The notes: a model not told the origin generated them from the sequence alone. Counted from the stretch's first letter, positions 1 through 8,814 are shown. The stretch: DNA of 64,000 nt from Halobacterium litoreum (GCF_021233415.1 NZ_CP089466.1:1-64000); one strand, 5' to 3'. Translations and numbers: made by a program.

Positions 1-9
1 GATTCGGAA
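1..9 (+). repeat. GATTCGGAA motif, copy 1
   Basis: First of three identical 9-mers in non-coding parts of the accessory block (others at 4522 and 4601). Each is followed by an A/C-rich stretch containing CCAC or CACC. This copy lies 47 bases before the Orc1/Cdc6 start. Its function is unknown. Confidence 0.4.
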
Positions 10-32
10 ATCACCCACTTCCATTTATTAGC

Positions 33-48
33 CTACAGCGACGCGTCG
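33..48 (+). repeat. CTACAGCGA(C)GCGTCG repeat, left copy
   Basis: The 16-mer CTACAGCGACGCGTCG lies just before the Orc1/Cdc6 gene. A copy differing by one deleted base lies after the gene at 1201-1215. The pair brackets the gene and its small downstream ORF. Confidence 0.35.
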
Positions 49-55
49 ACGCAGA

Positions 56-1075
56 ATGATCACCGACGCCCGCGTCCTTCAGCCCGAGTTCGTGCCCGGC
101 GAAGTCCAACACCGCGACGCCGAAGTCAACCACCTCTCGGCCGCACTCCGTCCCCTCATCGACGGTGACCCCACTGACCCCGTCCTCATCGACGGGCCAC
201 CGGGGGTAGGGAAGACGTGTATTGCGCGGTTCACGGTCGAACGGCTCCGCGAAGCCTCAGTCGCGTTGAATCATCAGTACGTGAATTGCTGGGAGGAGTA
301 CAGCCGCTTCAAAACCCTCTACCAGATCCTGGACGGCGTCGCATCCACCATCGACATTCATCGCCAGTCCACGCCGACCGACGTCCTCCTCGACCGGCTC
401 CGTGACTACGACGGCCCGCCCTACATCGTTATTCTCGACGAGGTCGATCAACTCGAAGACAAGAGCCTCCTCTACGACCTCTATCGCATCCCCGAGCTCA
501 CGATGGTGCTCATCGTCAACGACGAAGCACAACTGTTCGCTGGCCTCGACGACCGCCTCAACAGCCGCCTCAACGCCTGCACCCGAGTCCATTTCGACAC
601 CTACCCCAAGAGCGAACTTACCGCAATTCTCCACGACCGCGTCCGCTGGGGCCTCAACGCCGACTACCTCCAAGACGGCGTCTTACCGACGATCGCAGAG
701 CTAGCGGCCGGCGACGCTCGTACTGCAATCGGGATTCTTCGCCAAGCCGCCCACACCGTCCACACCAACTCCCACGACATGCTCACCGACAGCATCGCTG
801 AAGAGGTAGCTCCAGCAGCACGTACCGAAATCCGCCGCAATGCCGTCGAACGCCTCACCCACCACCAGGAAGTCATATACACCATCATCAACGAAGCAGG
901 TGAAATCACGCCCGGTGATCTCTACGAAGCCTACCGAGACCGCGTGGACAACTCGAAGACGAAACGCACGGTCCGGAATTATCTCGCCAAACTGGAGCAG
1001 TACAACCTCATCGCGGCCGACGGCCAAACCAAAGGCCGTCGGTATCGGACTCTCACCGACGCTGCACTAGCGTGA
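56..1075 (+). CDS. cdc6: Orc1/Cdc6-family AAA+ ATPase
   Basis: A 339-residue replication-initiator-type ATPase. Walker A is GPPGVGKT at residues 47-54, and Walker B is IVILDEVD at 124-131. A sensor-type segment with a conserved Asn (VLIVND) follows. The C-terminal third, roughly residues 260-339, reads as a winged-helix domain (VIYTIINEAGEITPGDLYEA). Family members bind origin DNA and load the replicative helicase. At 339 residues it is shorter than typical chromosomal paralogues (about 380-420), which fits the plasmid or element type. It sits in a low-GC block with nuclease and transposase genes and could serve a resident or past extrachromosomal element. I cannot tell whether it fires an origin, since no clear origin-recognition-box array is visible in the 55 bases upstream. 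Confidence 0.88.
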   Translation: MITDARVLQPEFVPGEVQHRDAEVNHLSAALRPLIDGDPTDPVLIDGPPGVGKTCIARFTVERLREASVALNHQYVNCWEEYSRFKTLYQILDGVASTIDIHRQSTPTDVLLDRLRDYDGPPYIVILDEVDQLEDKSLLYDLYRIPELTMVLIVNDEAQLFAGLDDRLNSRLNACTRVHFDTYPKSELTAILHDRVRWGLNADYLQDGVLPTIAELAAGDARTAIGILRQAAHTVHTNSHDMLTDSIAEEVAPAARTEIRRNAVERLTHHQEVIYTIINEAGEITPGDLYEAYRDRVDNSKTKRTVRNYLAKLEQYNLIAADGQTKGRRYRTLTDAALA

Positions 1076-1101
1076 AACAAATCTCCGTAGCAAACAAAAC
1101 C

Positions 1102-1197
1102 ATGGACACCACCCCCCAATCTCGGAGCCTCCTCCTCTTACTGTTCGGCATCATCATGACGATGATTGGCGTTCTAGGCCTCCTCGGTCACCTTTAA
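1102..1197 (+). CDS. Predicted 31-residue single-span membrane peptide
   Basis: ATG at 1102 and TAA at 1195 enclose 31 codons. After a polar start (MDTTPQSRS) comes one hydrophobic stretch of about 20 residues rich in Leu, Ile, Met and Gly, ending LLGHL. It starts 27 bases after the Orc1/Cdc6 stop on the same strand, so it could be co-transcribed. No Shine-Dalgarno is evident. It is a plausible small membrane protein or toxin-like peptide, but it is short enough to be a chance ORF. No function is assigned. Confidence 0.35.
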   Translation: MDTTPQSRSLLLLLFGIIMTMIGVLGLLGHL

Positions 1198-1200
1198 CGT

Positions 1201-1215
1201 CTACAGCGAGCGTCG
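1201..1215 (+). repeat. CTACAGCGA(C)GCGTCG repeat, right copy
   Basis: CTACAGCGAGCGTCG matches the copy at 33-48 except for one missing C. It begins three bases after the small membrane ORF stops. Confidence 0.35.
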
Positions 1216-1327
1216 TCCAGTCAAAACGTACCAGGGGTTGGCTGGGAATTTCTGTGAATAGACGAGTCCTGATTGGTAAGTGGGGATACGAACTTGTTGA
1301 ACCCAGCAGAATCGGATTCAACCAGTA

Positions 1328-2527
1328 CTAACCGTCTGTGGCTACGTCGAAGGCGAGAAGCGCTACGTCTACCTGATTACCACTGTCATCCGGTCTATCA
1401 AACGAGTACTGCCACCAATTCTCCTGTTTTTTCTCCTTCAAGCCTACACAGAGGGGATGTTCCTCAACAGCATCCGGAATCTTCTCTAGGATGCTGGAGA
1501 ACGAATCACGGTCCACGAAGAGGATCACTGCTGCCTTTGTATCTCTCCACGTAAGGTAGCGTTCAAGCAGCTGTGATATCTTCCCACCATCTTGGTCCTC
1601 TCCCGAAAGTGTTTGCGGGCCGGCCCACATCCCGCACTCTGCGATGAAGATGTTGTCTCCGTCGTGACGAAGGAGAATGTCAGATTTACCGTCCTTATTG
1701 AACGTTTCACCAGTTGCCGAACCTTCGAAGTTCATCTCCAGGAACGTGAGCATGACATTCCGGTAATCCTCCTCACCGAAGTCGGAGTATGTCTCCGGTG
1801 ACTTCTCAAAGCCGTGTCCAACCGCATCTACTGCCTCAATGATTTCATAATAGATCTCATCAGAGATGCCCGGACCAGGCTGTTCTTTGCTGATTTCGTC
1901 GATGGTGATCTCTTTCCGGCGCTGGGGTTCGTCAATTTTCAGCGCCTCATTTACATTGTCTCGCCGTACAACCTCTATTCCGAGATTTTCAAACCGTTGC
2001 TGCTGTTGTTGAATCTTCTCTTTCTTTTCTTCGTGAAGGCTCTTGGCTTCCTCTCGAACCCGGGTGTAGAACTCATCAAGATTATTGTCAACTCGGGAAT
2101 ATTGTTTTTTGATGTAATTCTGGATTTCTTTTTGGAACTTCTGGAGTTCACTATCGGAGTACCCATCGTTTCGCCTGGGGAAATATACGTCCACGTAGCC
2201 TTCCTCTTCATTCACCTCAGCCCGGTACCCGTTTGCCTTACTGGGTGAAGGCTTAAGCCGCAGAATCCGTTCATTGCCAGCGTACTGGAACCGGAGGGCT
2301 GGTTCTTCATCATCCCAATCGTCAATCGTAACCTGGGGATTGTCCAAATCAAGCTCCAGAGGGTCTAACTCAAAATCTTGAACGACATAGTCCGCAAAGT
2401 CATCCGAGCTGGTCCTTAGAATCTCATCCGAAGACGCATCCTCCACCTTCTGTCTGGCCTTCTGCCGTGGCCGTTGGGTAACGTTCGAAATCGGATCGTC
2501 GTTGAAAATTATAAACGTCCTCATCAT
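1328..2527 (-). CDS. PD-(D/E)XK-like protein with catalytic Lys replaced by Gly
   Basis: A 399-residue protein. The N-terminal two thirds holds a charged segment with a probable coiled coil including a Gln run (about residues 140-185). The C-terminal third has a restriction-endonuclease-like core: GKSDILL (D283), then FIAECG (E297, C298, G299), then QLLERYLTWRDTKAAVILF. In the bacterial and archaeal family I recall with this layout, the strand reads GECK or AECK and is followed by FW, giving D...E-x-K. Here the Lys is Gly; a migrated Lys could be the one in GGKISQLL a few residues on. I chose the ATG at 2527 because GGAGGG lies 9 bases before it. An in-frame start at 2605 is possible but lacks this support. 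AT-rich and foreign-looking. It faces the Cas4-like gene across an 87-base divergent gap. The biological role is unknown. Confidence 0.6.
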   Translation of the reverse strand: MMRTFIIFNDDPISNVTQRPRQKARQKVEDASSDEILRTSSDDFADYVVQDFELDPLELDLDNPQVTIDDWDDEEPALRFQYAGNERILRLKPSPSKANGYRAEVNEEEGYVDVYFPRRNDGYSDSELQKFQKEIQNYIKKQYSRVDNNLDEFYTRVREEAKSLHEEKKEKIQQQQQRFENLGIEVVRRDNVNEALKIDEPQRRKEITIDEISKEQPGPGISDEIYYEIIEAVDAVGHGFEKSPETYSDFGEEDYRNVMLTFLEMNFEGSATGETFNKDGKSDILLRHDGDNIFIAECGMWAGPQTLSGEDQDGGKISQLLERYLTWRDTKAAVILFVDRDSFSSILEKIPDAVEEHPLCVGLKEKKQENWWQYSFDRPDDSGNQVDVALLAFDVATDG

Positions 2528-2536
2528 ATATTTCAA

Positions 2537-2542
2537 CCCTCC
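2537..2542 (-). promoter_or_regulatory. Shine-Dalgarno fixing the start at 2527
   Basis: On the minus strand GGAGGG lies 9 bases before the ATG-ATG pair at 2527-2522. Strong Shine-Dalgarno sites are uncommon for first genes in haloarchaea, which are mostly leaderless, so this one decides the start codon. Confidence 0.65.
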
Positions 2543-2614
2543 TTCATTCGAGCAGATATAATATTCGGTCAGTGTCCCATACTGTACCGAGTGTTTTACC
2601 CCCAACGCGGAATA

Positions 2615-3841
2615 ATGAAACTGTCTTGGCGATCACCAGTTTTGGAAATCGGAAGAGACACTCGCTTGCCTAACAAGTGTCTCCCCTTCAGTTCGCCTGT
2701 GACATCATCCGATTCAGAGTTGGACAGCCAGGGCCCTAGTCCCGAATCAACACAGGTCGTCCAAACAACATCCGTCCTAGCTCAACTGCGTGCGCAGGTC
2801 ACAAAGGACCGGTTCAGCGCGTGGTACGCGGAACAGCAGTTCGCCGAGAACATCCTGGAGGGACAGGCTTACTTCAACGGGCCCGCAGACCCGAAACCGC
2901 CGGCTCGCCATAGCCCGAGTACGCTCTTGGAGTGCCACCGGAAAGCGAGCTACAAACGCCAGAACGCCCCCAAAGAAGACACCCCACCAGAGGGGCTGTT
3001 TTGGATCGGCACCGAATTCGAAGAACGCTTGGCCGTCCCGTTCCTCCAGGATGTGACGCCGCCCGATACCTACGTAACCAACTCGGTGTGGATCGACCAC
3101 GAACTCACCGTTGATGGCGTCACCGTACAACTCCGGGGTGCGACTGACCCCGCGATCGTCACGCCTGACGACGACCCGCTGCTGGTCACCGAGATCAAGA
3201 CCACGTCTTCACTCGACCATCTCTCCGGCCCGAAGGAGGCGCACAAAGCCCAACTCCACGCGTACCTCGCGGCGCTCAACGCCGACTACGACCACGAGAT
3301 CTCGACTGGCCTCCTCGTGTATGCGAGCCGGACGACCCTCGACGTCGAGGTGTTCGAGGTGGCCTTCGACGAGGCGTTCTGGGAGGCGGTGACCGAGTGG
3401 ATGGCCGCACTCACGACCTACGAGCAGGCGGGTGAGCTGCCGCCAGCTTCACCAGAGCGTGACTGGGAATGTTCGTACTGCTCGTTCAAGCATCGATGTG
3501 GCGAGGCGGACACTCCGTACAGTGACATCGGCCATGATGGCCTCCTGCCGCTGTTCGATAACTACGACACCGAGAACCTGAAAGCGTACTTGAATGCGCA
3601 CGCGGAGCGTGACGCCCGTCTCACACCCACACTAGCGCATAAATTCCCCCGGCTCGCTGACGAGTACGGTGTCTACGACTGGGCTTGCCCATCTTGTGGC
3701 GAAACCTTCGACTGGAAGAACATCGACTGGGAGACGGACTCAACCGACCCACCGTACTGTCCAAGCTGCCTCAAGGCCGGCGAGATGGTCACGATAGCAG
3801 GTCCAGAACCCGAAGACCAACTAACAGCTCCAGGAGAGTGA
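2615..3841 (+). CDS. Cas4-like Fe-S PD-(D/E)XK nuclease with C-terminal zinc ribbon
   Basis: About 408 residues from the ATG at 2615. The nuclease core is clear: TDPAIV (D178) followed by VTEIKTTS (E193-x-K195), with a Q-x(3)-Y helix after it (QLHAYLAAL). Four cysteines are placed as in Cas4/AddB-type Fe-S nucleases: C107 in ECHRK, and C286, C289 and C295 in CSYCSFKHRC. After a linker, a second metal site follows, C358/C361 and C382/C385 in the pattern CPSC...CPSC, a zinc ribbon not found in core Cas4. Expected activity is 5'-end resection or ssDNA cleavage, by family knowledge. No cas genes or CRISPR array are nearby. The first 70 or so residues are weakly constrained and the true start may be further downstream. 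It is divergent from the 1328-2527 gene. Confidence 0.72.
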   Translation: MKLSWRSPVLEIGRDTRLPNKCLPFSSPVTSSDSELDSQGPSPESTQVVQTTSVLAQLRAQVTKDRFSAWYAEQQFAENILEGQAYFNGPADPKPPARHSPSTLLECHRKASYKRQNAPKEDTPPEGLFWIGTEFEERLAVPFLQDVTPPDTYVTNSVWIDHELTVDGVTVQLRGATDPAIVTPDDDPLLVTEIKTTSSLDHLSGPKEAHKAQLHAYLAALNADYDHEISTGLLVYASRTTLDVEVFEVAFDEAFWEAVTEWMAALTTYEQAGELPPASPERDWECSYCSFKHRCGEADTPYSDIGHDGLLPLFDNYDTENLKAYLNAHAERDARLTPTLAHKFPRLADEYGVYDWACPSCGETFDWKNIDWETDSTDPPYCPSCLKAGEMVTIAGPEPEDQLTAPGE

Positions 3842-3961
3842 ACGGCTGAAATCCCTGTTGAAGATCAGAACGTCGATTGGCTATTGTGAAAGACAACTAG
3901 TAGGTTTCGACGGCAATCCGATACTTGATTTTGAGTGATGAGACCAGAGAGAACTCAACTG

Positions 3962-4477
3962 TCAGTACTCCTTTCTGACCCGTTCAGCAAGCTCCTCGTT
4001 GAGTTCCGAGCTCCGCTGTTCCAGAGACGTCTCAAACTCGCCAATATGGTCTTTGAACTCTGCTTCAAGCTCCCGAATCTCTTTCCGTATACGAGCTAAA
4101 TCAGTCCGTTCCAACTCATCCGCGACTATCTGTCCTTTTGCAGTCAGCGGATGGCGCTTATAGCCTCCACCACCGGTATAATCCGGCTTTTCTGAGATCA
4201 GTTCCAAGTCTTTGGCATCTTCAATCCGGTCAGTAATCGTTGCACGGCTAACCTCCAGTTTCTCCTGTAGCACAACGAACCGCTTTGGACCGTCCTGTAA
4301 CTCGTCTAAAACCCTGACTCCGCCCTTCTTCGAGAGGAAGTCTGCAATCCGTTCGGCTTCCTCATCGCTAAACGCTTCCAGGGAGGATGGACCCGCTCCT
4401 TCTCCAGACTCGTTGCTATCAACCACGCTTCTCCAATTACTTGCAAGCCCCCCAATAAGAAACGCCCGGTACAACAT
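3962..4477 (-). CDS. Winged-helix transcriptional regulator (MarR/PadR-like)
   Basis: 171 residues. A winged helix-turn-helix spans roughly residues 38-115. VLDELQDGPKRFVVLQEKL leads into the recognition helix SRATITDRIEDAKDLELI, then a Gly-rich wing (GGGGYKRHPLTAKG). The C-terminal 45 residues form a charged, probably coiled-coil helix for dimerisation. It is divergent from the transposase-fold pair, with two short palindromes in the gap, so it probably represses itself and/or those genes. The start is uncertain: ATG at 4477 is used here, but a GTG about 54 bases inside has GGAG just before it and would leave the palindromes in a normal upstream position. Low GC. Confidence 0.65.
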   Translation of the reverse strand: MLYRAFLIGGLASNWRSVVDSNESGEGAGPSSLEAFSDEEAERIADFLSKKGGVRVLDELQDGPKRFVVLQEKLEVSRATITDRIEDAKDLELISEKPDYTGGGGYKRHPLTAKGQIVADELERTDLARIRKEIRELEAEFKDHIGEFETSLEQRSSELNEELAERVRKEY

Positions 4478-4482
4478 AAACC

Positions 4483-4503
4483 AGTAGTTTAGACTAAACC
4501 ACT
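4483..4503. promoter_or_regulatory. Palindromic operator candidate 1 (GTTTAG-A-CTAAAC)
   Basis: Perfect 6-base arms GTTTAG and CTAAAC around A4493, extended by AGT/ACT with one mismatch. It lies immediately upstream of the winged-helix gene and 124 bases before the first transposase-fold gene. Confidence 0.5.
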
Positions 4504-4513
4504 ATTCTCCCCT

Positions 4514-4526
4514 GAATCGCCGATTC
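4514..4526. promoter_or_regulatory. Palindromic operator candidate 2 (GAATCG-C-CGATTC)
   Basis: Perfect 6-1-6 inverted repeat centred 27 bases from the first palindrome, on about the same face of the helix within half a turn. Its right arm overlaps the GATTCGGAA repeat at 4522. Confidence 0.45.
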
Positions 4527-4530
4527 GGAA
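4522..4530 (+). repeat. GATTCGGAA motif, copy 2
   Basis: Identical to positions 1-9 and 4601-4609. It is followed by TCCACC and lies in the divergent promoter gap. Confidence 0.4.
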
Positions 4531-4600
4531 TCCACCAGAAGTAGCATTCACACCGTTCTCAACCCTTCATTAGCCCGTATTACATACTTGCAGGTGGTGC

Positions 4601-4609
4601 GATTCGGAA
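4601..4609 (+). repeat. GATTCGGAA motif, copy 3
   Basis: The third identical 9-mer, 79 bases after copy 2 and 17 bases before the ATG at 4627. It is followed by ACGCCACC. Confidence 0.4.
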
Positions 4610-4626
4610 ACGCCACCCCGGCGAAT

Positions 4627-5778
4627 ATGGTTCACTCTGAACCACTCTGGGTTGCGCCACAGCAAACCATGCAACCAGCAAATAACGACGATTCACAGAC
4701 AACGGGGCCAACCCGTGAGCAAGCGAAGAGAGCTATAAGCACCGCAGTAACTCGAATTGATGAGGATTCCATTGGAGAGGACATCAACAATGTAGGTTTC
4801 GGTGAGATCCCTCGCTCACAGAAGGCAGGCGAGGTGTCTCAGCGAACTCGACCGTCGAAGGAACTCCAACGCAAGTGCGCGGAAACAGCGTTCGACGCTT
4901 CGGCCGAACACCTCACCAACATCCTCACCCAATACGACCAGATTTCACCGGTAACGATCGCACTAGATGTGAAGGTACTCGATTCCGAGTGCTGGACTAA
5001 TCCAGAAACGCACGAACTGGTTGACACCAACCAAGAAGGAGAGGGGTACACAGGCAAACTGCGCGTTGCGACCGCGACCGTTATCAATTCTTCAGTCCCG
5101 GTCACCGTGGCCATTATCCCGCTTAGAGGTAGGACCACGGACCAGAAAGAGTTCTATAGCGAAGTTGTCCAGGAGCTACTCTATCAAGCAACCCAATACG
5201 TGGAGGTGGGTACCGTTCTCGCCTCACGGGCGTTCAACTCGGCGGATTGCATCACGGAATTCGAGGAGCGAGGAATCGAGTATCTCGTTCCAGCGCGAAA
5301 AACACCAGAGATAATAGCGGAGATCAACCGCCTGGACCAGTCTGGTGTTACGAAGGCCACAGCCGACACTGATGTTACGGTTTGTGGTGAGGACCATGAG
5401 TCCGCATCGGCTGCCTTCGTCTATATCCCGACCGACGCAGAAAGTGAACGGGGTGAGTTCACGCCGTTTCTCTCGAACCTTGACGCTGTACTCAACGACC
5501 CGGAATGTCTCCTAGACCGTTTCAACCAGCGCTGGCAGGCAGCACACCACACTAGACTGTTCCGGAAGCAACTGGTAGACAAGGTCGAACCTGCTAGGAA
5601 GCTGCCGGTACGGGAGTTCTGGGTGGCTGCTACGGAGGTGAATGCCTACCAGCTTGCCCGTATGGTTCTCGCTGGTATTACTGAGGATCTCGAAGTTGGG
5701 AAGGCGCTTTCGTTTACCCAGTTTGTCGCCTTTGTCCAGTCCAAGCGACAGTTCGGGAGCCTCCACACTCAGGAGTAG
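4627..5778 (+). CDS. IS4-like transposase-fold protein lacking catalytic acids
   Basis: 383 residues from the ATG at 4627; earlier in-frame TTG/GTG starts from 4588 are possible. The RNase-H-like landmarks align by eye with the next gene. IALDVKVLD holds the first Asp (D114). GTVLASRAFNSADCI stands where active members have a DRGFYS or DRAF block, so the second Asp is Ser (S200). FNQRWQAAHHTRLFR stands where active members have the Y-R-E-K signature: F299 and R302 are kept in position, but the Glu is Ala (A306) and the Lys is Arg (R313). The length and fold look intact with no stop or frameshift, so this looks like a maintained inactive paralogue rather than debris. It ends 6 bases before the next gene, whose Shine-Dalgarno lies in its last codons. 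Possible roles are a transposase cofactor, a DNA-binding repressor or a domesticated factor; all are inference. Confidence 0.6.
   Translation: MVHSEPLWVAPQQTMQPANNDDSQTTGPTREQAKRAISTAVTRIDEDSIGEDINNVGFGEIPRSQKAGEVSQRTRPSKELQRKCAETAFDASAEHLTNILTQYDQISPVTIALDVKVLDSECWTNPETHELVDTNQEGEGYTGKLRVATATVINSSVPVTVAIIPLRGRTTDQKEFYSEVVQELLYQATQYVEVGTVLASRAFNSADCITEFEERGIEYLVPARKTPEIIAEINRLDQSGVTKATADTDVTVCGEDHESASAAFVYIPTDAESERGEFTPFLSNLDAVLNDPECLLDRFNQRWQAAHHTRLFRKQLVDKVEPARKLPVREFWVAATEVNAYQLARMVLAGITEDLEVGKALSFTQFVAFVQSKRQFGSLHTQE
5771..5775 (+). promoter_or_regulatory. Shine-Dalgarno inside the end of the upstream gene
   Basis: AGGAG spans the final Gln-Glu codons of the inactive transposase-fold gene, 9 bases before the ATG at 5785. 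This implies translational coupling of the pair from one mRNA. Confidence 0.6.
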
Positions 5779-5784
5779 TCGTCG

Positions 5785-7521
5785 ATGGAGCGTGATGACC
5801 CCGCAGTCGCTGAGTCCATCGTCGTGCACGCAGAGACGCTCTGTGAGCGCGAGGACCACCTGTGGGACGTCATCAACCAGCTTTCGATACCACTCGATCT
5901 CCTCACTGATCACCGTGACCAGAGCAAGGCGGTGTTCGAAACCGAGGAGATGGTTCGCGCGTTTTTATACAAAGAAATCCGTGGGTTTTCGCAGTCTGGC
6001 TTAGCGGAGGAGTTAGGAACGAGTTCCAGCCTGGTGAAGAGCTGTGGGTTCAACATCAAGGATTTAGGAAAATCGCCCTCACAGCAGGACCTTTCGTACG
6101 CGTGGGGGGAGTTTAGCGGGGATACAAAGGAGATCATCGAGGCGGCTGCCACATCGATTGCTGATGTTGCTGTTGAACACGGTGTTATTTCCGAAGGGCT
6201 CGTCCCGTCACGCCCGTCCGACGATATTGATCAGAGCGGGCAGAGTCAGCGGGAGTACAAGAGAGAACACTCCACAAGGACGATTCGGCTTGCTCGAAGC
6301 CATATGCTTCCTGAATTTAAGACTGGACGAGCGCCTCACCGGATTTATTCAGACGAAGAGCTTCATGACATGCTTGTTCGGGCCTGTGAGCGGAAAGGGA
6401 GCGCCCATTCTGAAGGTGAGTACGGGTGGCTGATTGATGATGACCAGACGTGCGCCGGCTCCACGCTCCTTCGCGCGATCAAGAAAATTGCGACACCGGA
6501 GGAGATGGATGCGCAGTTTACACTCTCTGATTTTGCGGACGAAGACGCGATGCCGCGGATCAGCCGGATTCGGGACAGCATCATGGAGTCATTCGATGCG
6601 GCGACAGACAACATCATCAACTCGATTCGGGGAGAGAATCCATTCGATCAGGGACGGAAAACTATCGCTGCTATCGACATAACCCACGAGCAGTTCCACG
6701 CCTCGCCGTGGGAGGACAAGGACAAGGGAATTGTCAAGGAAGATTTTCCCCCGATGGTGAGCGGGTACAAGAAGGACGGAGAGTACAAGCGCGGATTCAA
6801 ATACGCCACTATCACGCTCGTGGGAGATCACGCGCCGATTATTCTTGGTGTGGAGCCGGTGAAAGAGAACTCGAAGTGGGAGCCGGATGGTTCTCCGTCG
6901 TTCTCGAAGGCCGACCTCGTGGACCGGCTTCTTGATAAGGCCGAACGATTCGTTGACCTCGATGAGGTTCTGTTTGACCGGGGATTCTACAGCAACGAGG
7001 TGTACGCGAGGGTGCATGACCGTGACCTTATCTACACGTCACCGGTCCCGATGTACAAGGATGATTACGAGGCAATCGAGGATATTGAGGCCCACGACAC
7101 GGCTGATGCAGCTGTGAAACACGATGTTCCGTTTGGCCATGATGGGGAGGTCCATCACCATGCGGAATTCATGTACGTTCCAAGCCAGAGTGATGACGCT
7201 AACGGGAAGTACGCCGTCTTCGTAACGAACCGAGATCGCGTTGGGCCGGAGGAGGTCAAGAGTGTCTGTAACGGATACCGGCGAAGATGGGATATTGAGA
7301 ACCAGTATAAGTCCGTGAAAAGCTTCCTGGCGAAGACGTCCTCGAAGGACTACCGGGTTCGACTGTGTAACTTCGTGTTCGCGTCACTGATTTACAACCT
7401 CTGGCGATTGACGGACTACCTGATCAAGGTGGCGTTGGACAAGGAGATTCGCTCACCGCCAGTGTTGACGGCAAAGACATTCGTGCGGGCGCTTGGTGAA
7501 TTCCTCAGGGAGGTTGACTAG
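5785..7521 (+). CDS. IS4-type DDE transposase, apparently intact
   Basis: 578 residues. The N-terminal part (about 55-95) has a helix-turn-helix-like segment (FSQSGLAEELGTSSSLVKS). The catalytic core has D298 in AAIDITHEQ and D398 in VLFDRGFYSNEVY. The IS4 signature Y-(2)-R-(3)-E-(6)-K is exact at Y498, R501, E505 and K512, followed by RVRLCNFVFASLIYNLWRL. It should perform cut-and-paste transposition at element ends. It is longer than many haloarchaeal IS4 members (about 400-450) because of the N-terminal region. The gene is directly downstream of, and apparently co-translated with, the inactive homologue. I could not find terminal inverted repeats on either side of the pair, so whether it still moves DNA is open. 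Confidence 0.8.
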   Translation: MERDDPAVAESIVVHAETLCEREDHLWDVINQLSIPLDLLTDHRDQSKAVFETEEMVRAFLYKEIRGFSQSGLAEELGTSSSLVKSCGFNIKDLGKSPSQQDLSYAWGEFSGDTKEIIEAAATSIADVAVEHGVISEGLVPSRPSDDIDQSGQSQREYKREHSTRTIRLARSHMLPEFKTGRAPHRIYSDEELHDMLVRACERKGSAHSEGEYGWLIDDDQTCAGSTLLRAIKKIATPEEMDAQFTLSDFADEDAMPRISRIRDSIMESFDAATDNIINSIRGENPFDQGRKTIAAIDITHEQFHASPWEDKDKGIVKEDFPPMVSGYKKDGEYKRGFKYATITLVGDHAPIILGVEPVKENSKWEPDGSPSFSKADLVDRLLDKAERFVDLDEVLFDRGFYSNEVYARVHDRDLIYTSPVPMYKDDYEAIEDIEAHDTADAAVKHDVPFGHDGEVHHHAEFMYVPSQSDDANGKYAVFVTNRDRVGPEEVKSVCNGYRRRWDIENQYKSVKSFLAKTSSKDYRVRLCNFVFASLIYNLWRLTDYLIKVALDKEIRSPPVLTAKTFVRALGEFLREVD

Positions 7522-7758
7522 GGCTCATTCCCACAGCTGGGGTCGCAAACGCTGAGCGGTAGCGCTGTCCACCACTCCTTTCTTTCGCTAATAACATCCC
7601 TGTAATCGACGCGCCCCAGTATCGAGATTACAGTCACCTTCATTCCGCCCTGAACAACCCAGATACAAACTTCGGTAGTTCATGGCTCGTTTGTAGCCTT
7701 AAAAACGTCCAAAGAATGTGGGGAACTTTCTTGGCGTTCGCCGCCTCGCTCTCACCGG
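7522..7758. other. Boundary intergenic region
   Basis: 237 bases without a gene, between the accessory block and the core genome. It holds an 8-base inverted repeat (7600-7633) and an AT-rich CTTAAAAAC near 7699 that may be the promoter element for the dipeptidase gene. No match to the left flank of the transposase pair was found. Confidence 0.5.
7600..7633. repeat. Inverted repeat CTGTAATC/GATTACAG
   Basis: Perfect 8-base arms (7600-7607 and 7626-7633) with an 18-base spacer that itself contains TCGA at both ends. It lies 79 bases after the transposase stop. It may be a terminator hairpin, a protein site or part of an element end. Confidence 0.4.
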
Positions 7759-8814
7759 ATGCCCGACACGCCGCCGATTTTCGACGGCCACAACGACGCG
7801 CTGCTGGCGCTCCGGCGCGAGGACGAGACGGTTTCAGATTTCCTCGCCGGCCGGGACACCGGTGACCTCGACCTCCCGCGAGCGCGCGAAGGCGGACTCG
7901 CCGCGGGCTTCTTCGCGCTATTCGTGCCGTCCGGCCCCGAGTTCTCCGCGAGCGACGACGCGAACCGCACGGAGACCGACGACGGCTACCGAATCGAGCG
8001 CCCGCCGCCGCTCGCGGGGCCGTACGCGCGCTCGGTCGTCGGCGAGATGTTGGACGCGGTCGACGAACTCGCGACGGACGACCGGGTGCGCGTCTGTCGG
8101 GATGTCGACGACGTGCGGGCGTGCATCTCGGGCGACGAACTCGGCGTCGTCGTCCACTTCGAGGGCGCGGAGGCGATTCGCCCCGACTGCTCGAATTTCG
8201 GCGACTACTACGACCGCGGCCTGCGCTCGCTCGGGTTGGCGTGGAGTCGCCCGACCGCGTTCGCGGACGGCGTGCCGTTCCGCTACCCGAGTTCGCCCGA
8301 CGTGGGCGGCGGGCTCACCGACGCGGGCCGCCGGCTCGTCCGTCGGTGCAACGACCGCGGCGTGCTCGTGGACTGCGCGCACCTCACGGCGGCGGGATTC
8401 TGGGACGTCCACGAAGTCTCGTCGGCGCCGACGGTGGTGTCCCACAGCGGCGCCCACGAGGTGTGCCCGCTGTCCCGGAATCTCACCGACGAGCAACTCG
8501 ACGCCGTCGCGGACACCGGCGGACTCGTGGGGTTGACGTTCGGCGCGAGCGCGCTCCGGCCGGACGGCGGGCGCGACCCGGACGCGCCGCTCTCTGTGGC
8601 CGTCGAGCACGTCGACTACCTCGTGGACCGGATGGGAATCGATCACGTCGCGCTCGGGTCGGACTTCGACGGCGCGACGACTCTCGCACCGCTCGGCGAC
8701 GCGACGGCGCTCCCGGACCTGCTCCGGGCGCTCCGCGAGGCGGGGTACTCCGAGCGCGACATCGAGAAAATCGCCCACGGGAACTGGCTCCGGGTCCTGT
8801 CGGCGACGTGGTAG
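7759..8814 (+). CDS. Membrane dipeptidase (peptidase family M19)
   Basis: 351 residues, matching the zinc-dependent renal dipeptidase family that cleaves dipeptides, including D-residue-containing ones. Visible landmarks are FDGHND at residues 7-12 (metal ligands His and Asp), VHFEGAEAI (bridging Glu), LVDCAHLTAAGFWDV, VSHSGAHEV and HVALGSDFDGA near the C-terminus. The usual SHSxxR/H motif reads SHSGAH, which is acceptable for the family. There is no signal peptide, so it is probably cytoplasmic. It is the first high-GC core-type gene after the accessory block and is convergent with the DUF4442 gene, whose stop lies directly against its own. Confidence 0.88.
   Translation: MPDTPPIFDGHNDALLALRREDETVSDFLAGRDTGDLDLPRAREGGLAAGFFALFVPSGPEFSASDDANRTETDDGYRIERPPPLAGPYARSVVGEMLDAVDELATDDRVRVCRDVDDVRACISGDELGVVVHFEGAEAIRPDCSNFGDYYDRGLRSLGLAWSRPTAFADGVPFRYPSSPDVGGGLTDAGRRLVRRCNDRGVLVDCAHLTAAGFWDVHEVSSAPTVVSHSGAHEVCPLSRNLTDEQLDAVADTGGLVGLTFGASALRPDGGRDPDAPLSVAVEHVDYLVDRMGIDHVALGSDFDGATTLAPLGDATALPDLLRALREAGYSERDIEKIAHGNWLRVLSATW

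Follow-up and report, generated by a model that had tools for sequence, protein, structure and literature searches.

In Halobacterium litoreum, two adjacent genes near the start of the 64,000-nucleotide stretch of DNA analysed here (NZ_CP089466.1, positions 1 to 64000; hereafter the window) raise the question of why a protein with the fold of a transposase, and without most of its catalytic residues, should be maintained directly 5' of an intact transposase. The original prediction regarded this pair (ORF1 and ORF2) as a system in itself, in which the inactive protein would be one half of a two-component transposase, a dominant-negative brake or a domesticated DNA-binding factor. The pair is not the whole system: it forms the right part of an element of approximately 7.7 kb (window positions 1 to 7720), which comprises, in this order, genes for an Orc1/Cdc6-like AAA+ ATPase, cargo, a Cas4-like nuclease of the PD-(D/E)XK type, a winged-helix protein, ORF1 and the DDE transposase ORF2. 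The features of this element are as follows.

1 to 33, plus strand: left border, tandem TTCCGGAA-GA-TTCGGAAATCACCCACTTCCATTTATTA, where homology between elements ends in at least nine pairwise comparisons
56 to 1075, plus strand: Orc1/Cdc6-like AAA+ ATPase, 339 amino acids (Pfam AAA_16 and Cdc6_lid)
1328 to 2605, minus strand: cargo, phage-defence candidate PDC-S54, 425 amino acids (PADLOC PDLC05036, E = 1e-95)
2474 to 3841, plus strand: Cas4-like PD-(D/E)XK nuclease with a four-cysteine cluster and zinc ribbon (Pfam PDDEXK_1, 4e-12; NCBIfam cas4, 4e-13)
2641 to 2648, plus strand: TTYGGAAA motif, second copy, 5' of the nuclease gene
3962 to 4477, minus strand: divergent winged-helix regulator, 171 amino acids (Pfam HVO_A0261_N, 4e-7, below cut-off; helix-turn-helix matches)
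4603 to 4610, plus strand: TTCGGAAA motif, third copy, 5' of ORF1 (43-fold enrichment in element promoters)
4627 to 5778, plus strand: ORF1, degenerate DDE-fold protein without an ORF2-type N-terminal domain (alignments, predicted fold)
5771 to 5776, plus strand: Shine-Dalgarno-like AGGAGT at the ORF1 stop, approximately 9 bases 5' of the ORF2 ATG
5785 to 7521, plus strand: ORF2, intact IS4/ISH3-superfamily DDE transposase, 578 amino acids (NCBIfam, Pfam, catalytic residues)
7687 to 7720, plus strand: right end, CTCGTTTGTAGCC...AAGAATGTG, matching the sequence with which related solo insertion sequences end on the right

The reading frame of ORF1 is open throughout and ends with the stop at 5778, so that the description of the gene as full-length was correct. 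The frame is not open by chance, since homologues with 27-30% identity occupy the same place in three other loci. In an alignment to approximately 50 relatives, ORF1 has S200, A306 and R313 where the relatives have D, E and K; the three substitutions that had been predicted are thus real, and the earlier list omitted only the retained first catalytic aspartate, D114. With S200 and A306 the complete catalytic triad is absent, and a relation to the IS4/ISH3 superfamily is present both in sequence (Pfam DDE_Tnp_1, E = 0.008; NCBIfam ISH3, E = 4e-8) and in predicted fold. An AF2 model built from a 33-sequence alignment reached a pLDDT of 72 and a pTM of 0.71 (pLDDT was 38 for a model from 4 sequences), and its best match in the PDB was the Tn5 transposase (E = 5e-8), the Tn5 inhibitor 1b7e being matched lower. 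The simple objection that the protein might not have an RNase-H fold thus failed, and sequence and predicted fold together confirmed ORF1 as a DDE-related protein with an IS4/Tn5-fold core. ORF1 can be aligned to ORF2 only from ORF2 residue ~265 onwards; as in the inhibitor (Inh) of Tn5, the RNase-H/DDE core is present without the N-terminal region, which in such inhibitors is the DNA-binding one.

ORF2, which begins with an ATG at 5785, carries D298, D398 and Y498-R501-E505-K512 in the alignment, as had been predicted, and thus the D, D, E signature of the IS4/ISH3 superfamily with Y-(2)-R-(3)-E-(6)-K. It matches NCBIfam ISH3 (5e-22) and Pfam DDE_Tnp_1 (1.7e-7); at 78 bits against a curated NCBIfam cut-off of 225, it does not belong to the ISH3 family proper. 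The claim that the two genes are translated together holds in part. A GGAG does overlap the stop codon of ORF1 (CAGGAGTAGTCGTCGATG), but the tight gap of 6 bp is peculiar to the window, related loci having approximately 125 bp between the two genes, and translational coupling is therefore suggested for the window only.

ORF1 is single-copy in its own genome, and pattern scans of genome contigs and viral contigs found no close relatives; members were recovered by profile search alone. A profile built from three sequences placed the family in 4 of 391 halobacterial genomes; its members scored approximately 600-680 bits, and generic transposases no higher than 146 (a separation of more than 450 bits). 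A profile search of 125 genomes from the family of genome G369 added no further members. Besides the window, the carriers are Natronococcus sp. A-GB1, the Natronorubrum daqingense plasmid NZ_CP019329.1, in whose record the protein is annotated as hypothetical, and Natrinema hispanicum CDM_6. In all four, ORF1 lies immediately 5' of the same type of ORF2 (62-65% identity) and has a divergent winged-helix gene upstream, as the predicted co-occurrence in fixed order requires. The four sequences are monophyletic (support 100/100) on a long branch, and the family is ancient. Recent duplication of ORF2 was rejected as its source, the tree giving ORF1 a separate old branch.

Fifty-seven columns are invariant among the four ORF1 sequences, and none of the four coding regions contains a disabling change despite an identity of only ~30%. 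Between the two closest copies, dN/dS is 0.34 for ORF1, 0.067 for ORF2, 0.10 for Cdc6, 0.19 for the nuclease and 0.08 for the winged-helix protein. Neutrality is rejected for ORF1 (p = 3e-4), and ORF1 is more relaxed than ORF2 (p = 2.6e-5); ORF1 is thus under purifying but relaxed selection. The prediction of a kept inactive partner could have failed, in simple form, through usual absence or decay of the gene or through a lack of purifying selection, and failed on neither count. Loss of the catalytic acids, on the other hand, is not uniform in the family: the substituted positions differ between copies (S/S/P and A/N/H), and the Natrinema protein (locus L116) retains both aspartates and the glutamate, K alone being replaced by R. 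This last homologue (L116:5599-7101) carries, as a C-terminal fusion, a counterpart of the ORF2 N-terminal domain, nearest to that of L147-type transposases, and is apparently a rearranged transposase.

The neighbouring genes show the setting to which the pair belongs. The four ORF1 loci also share the Orc1/Cdc6-like AAA+ protein (61% identity) and the Cas4-like nuclease (51-55%) in the same order, the Cdc6 gene of the Natrinema locus falling off its contig. The AAA+ protein of the window is 60-66% identical to the first gene of other elements and matches Orc1/Cdc6 families and structures, not TnsC; it also weakly matches a phage family of DNA-transposition AAA+ proteins (phrog_296, 6e-9). The nuclease gene probably starts near 2612-2650, and an alignment of 14 relatives shows no variation in its catalytic D, ExK and Q or in the four cysteines. 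Homologues of the winged-helix protein hold the same place in related elements. The PDC-S54 gene is absent from other elements. In the Natronococcus copy (L114:3049-3791) a MarR-like and PemK-like pair, likely a toxin-antitoxin cargo, stands between nuclease and winged helix. The nuclease gene of the Natrinema locus is split by a 3.4-kb insertion (L116:1209-4584) that carries a TnpB-like zinc-ribbon fragment.

Over 7130 bp the Natronococcus and Natronorubrum copies agree at 96.2% identity, their flanks being unrelated on either side, and this 7.13-kb copy in two genera indicates that the unit from Cdc6 to ORF2 moves as a whole. The element has discrete boundaries, of which the left one is putative. 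The right boundary of the Natronococcus element (7806/7807 in locus L114) is fixed by uninterrupted sites in seven other Natronococcus genomes, which carry the right flank but no element, homology starting precisely at that boundary; in relatives the two flanks of L114 are not adjacent, and no uninterrupted site was found for the left flank of L147. The window element starts at the start of the circular contig C1 and is contiguous with its end, the chromosome being joined across the two, and the first 8 bases of the left border lie at that end. No uninterrupted site was found for the window element, the island from -10.6 to +7.75 kb being variable among relatives in the genus. A search for target duplications gave no consistent target-site duplication; the CTACAAAC terminal repeat has no left copy, and no terminal repeat is common to both ends. 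A solo insertion sequence with ORF1 as a passenger was considered and rejected, as no left terminal repeat of solo insertion sequences lies between the nuclease gene and ORF2 in the window. Upstream, an operon at the end of contig C1 (L169:11409-17348) encodes a 1058-residue protein, a PglZ-like protein, a HerA-like ATPase and a GNAT protein; together with the element it makes up an island of approximately 18 kb that relatives in the genus lack at this site.

The octamer TTYGGAAA, in most cases with a pyrimidine and NNCAC after it, precedes cdc6, the nuclease gene and the transposase operon, and is 43-fold enriched before these three transcription units relative to the rest of the loci. Since it also occurs 5' of cdc6 genes outside the elements, it is read as a putative operator or binding box that is linked to Cdc6 and has been taken up by all three units; it does not prove a transposon end. 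For the left motif, a Cdc6-linked operator is at least as likely as a transposon end, and the exact left end is still only putative.

ORF1 is not a universal partner of ORF2. Most ORF2 relatives are insertion sequences without it, including two-gene insertion sequences with a divergent winged-helix gene, and many have multiplied without ORF1, Cdc6 or nuclease. Among other members of the superfamily, locus L052 holds two tandem copies of one 2.5-kb insertion sequence (2928-5422 and 5428-7922) with CACA...CTACAAAC terminal repeats, each edged by TAGTT. Several Cdc6 elements with the same type of ORF2 also lack ORF1, and at least nine further loci without it repeat the gene order of Cdc6, nuclease, winged helix (again divergent) and DDE protein, the last of ~590 amino acids (genomes G053, G230, G265, G183 and G145, Haloterrigena sp. 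H1, in which the nuclease is shortened, halophilic archaeon DL31, Halobacterium sp. GN101 and Halococcus dombrowskii). Because such elements recur across haloarchaea, ORF1 is considered an optional part.

The DDE proteins of the Cdc6 elements fall into at least three clades, and since the Cdc6 and nuclease trees disagree, modules have been exchanged. When both flanks are counted, the nuclease stands beside the Cdc6 gene in 11 of 18 members of the element clade against 0 of 20 in the next clade (p = 3e-5), and a DDE gene lies nearby in 14 of 18 against 7 of 20 (p = 0.011). Where members of the next clade have a DDE gene, it is divergent, often with a winged-helix gene, and there is no nuclease; this second arrangement, a winged helix and DDE divergent from the neighbouring-clade Cdc6, was seen at L267, L272, L274-L277 and L280. 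At L067 (4588-5229) and L244 (4357-5001) the nuclease slot holds a protein without a family match in which inspection of the sequence picks out DEDD-exonuclease-like motifs (FDIETSG, NxxxxxGGFD and HNxxDI), hinting that another nuclease has replaced the PD-(D/E)XK enzyme. On plasmid PHS3 of the laboratory strain Halobacterium salinarum R1 (L201), an annotated orc1 of the element clade is followed by a nuclease gene fragment, probably a decayed element.

Several known systems resemble this unit in part. Like Tn7 and Tn7-like transposons, it is a single mobile unit in which a DDE transposase, an AAA+ ATPase and a nuclease of the PD-(D/E)XK fold are combined and the defence cargo varies. However, the transposase is of the DDE_Tnp_1/IS4-ISH3 type, and ORF2 matched no TnsB (rve/Mu-like) model; the AAA+ protein is Orc1/Cdc6, not TnsC; and the nuclease is of the Cas4/RecB, PDDEXK_1 type, not TnsA. 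No TnsD/TniQ was seen in the element. As judged from these family assignments, the element falls outside Tn7 on all three core proteins and would share with it the set of activities. A large survey did not find Tn7-like transposases in archaea (PMC8649781). With respect to ORF1, the closest likeness is to Tn5 Inh, an N-terminally shortened IS4-family DDE protein beside an active transposase, whose structure (1b7e) the ORF1 model matches. Inh is an alternative product of the transposase gene itself, whereas ORF1 is a separate, ancient gene that has lost catalytic residues. ISH3 and other IS4-superfamily insertion sequences share the catalytic motifs of ORF2, give its best NCBIfam match and include related two-gene forms with a divergent winged helix, but ORF2 scores below the family cut-off and is here joined to Cdc6 and the nuclease. 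Haloarchaeal cdc6 genes close to transposases have been described, and the transposases proposed to mobilise origins (PMC3528665); the parts of that paper considered here describe neither a fixed multigene unit nor a degenerate transposase. The word nuclease is absent from PMC3528665 and PMC4441112, and the passages considered do not present the unit. No Cas1-type integrase of the casposon kind was matched among the main ORFs of window 1-7720, where the Cas4-like nuclease is the one Cas-type match. We found no description of the element in the openly searchable literature.

ORF1 could be left over from an older transposase whose place in the element ORF2 has taken, no longer functional and slowly decaying. 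Its relaxed dN/dS, its catalytic positions that vary among close relatives, its very long branch and its absence from solo insertion sequences and other Cdc6 elements would all fit, and since constraint is approximately fivefold weaker than on ORF2, slow decay keeps some weight; it is rather unlikely, however, in view of four coding regions free of disabling change at such low identity, the invariant columns and the rejection of neutrality. A heterodimeric transposase of ORF1 and ORF2, in which ORF1 as an active structural half supplies DNA binding or contacts to the target and the chemistry is left to ORF2, would fit the strict co-occurrence of ORF1 with one ORF2 type and the RNase-H core that it has kept, with D114 and the helices around it. 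The spread of ORF2-type transposases without ORF1, and the Cdc6 elements that lack it beside the same ORF2 type, make such a joint enzyme improbable.

Two further alternatives concern the element rather than the pair. Ordinary insertion sequences of winged helix and DDE gene might repeatedly have landed beside mobile Cdc6 replication genes, a course of events suggested earlier for haloarchaeal origins, with no composite element at all. In the data of PMC3528665 considered here, 42 of 102 predicted orc/cdc6 origins have a transposase or integrase nearby; type-C DDE proteins occur as two-gene insertion sequences, the Cdc6, nuclease and DDE trees are incongruent, and the second, divergent arrangement of Cdc6 and DDE also occurs. 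Repeated landing is unlikely to account for a fixed order and strand, a promoter motif common to three units, a nuclease specific to the Cdc6 clade of the element and a 7.1-kb unit, both halves included, at two unrelated sites with 96% identity. It is also doubtful that the element is mainly a replicon or origin cassette, with the TTCGGAAA repeats as the origin box to which Cdc6 binds and with transposases that do no more than move it. The motif is found with this Cdc6 family outside elements as well, and Cdc6 relatives are found on plasmids and viruses; but the same motif stands 5' of the nuclease and transposase genes, which fits an operator, and the element sits in chromosomes as well as plasmids.

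The explanation preferred here, with a probability of approximately 0.58, is a cargo-bearing element with ORF1-ORF2 as its right module, in which ORF1, conserved and optional, serves one lineage as a non-catalytic DDE subunit that joins ORF2 complexes as a brake, ORF2 catalyses and the AAA+ protein and nuclease are Tn7-like helpers. In the roles that we infer, ORF2 would carry out strand cleavage and transfer at the element ends, and the AAA+ protein and nuclease would help to choose the target and to cut the second strand, in the manner of TnsC and TnsA in Tn7. ORF1, without the catalytic acids and without the N-terminal, presumably end-binding, domain, would enter ORF2 complexes through its dimer-forming RNase-H core and lower their activity. 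By analogy with Tn5 Inh, ORF1 is thus probably an N-truncated, non-catalytic partner that acts as a brake. A brake is preferred to a joint enzyme because ORF2-type transposases have spread without ORF1 and because ORF1 lacks the N-terminal domain; the same missing domain weakens the domesticated DNA-binding factor, one of the three roles first proposed. A possible, though tentative, reading is that haloarchaea have a cargo-bearing counterpart of Tn7, made of several proteins and assembled independently of it, with Cdc6 in the role of TnsC, the Cas4-like nuclease in that of TnsA and the IS4-type transposase in that of TnsB, to which one lineage added a separately encoded dead subunit as a regulator.

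If this is true, an archaeal element with the three activities of Tn7 drawn from unrelated proteins would represent convergent evolution of controlled transposition, and orphan haloarchaeal cdc6 genes would gain a role outside replication. It would also partly explain the movement of defence genes and origins among haloarchaea, and the dead partner would be a natural, ancient regulator of a transposase.
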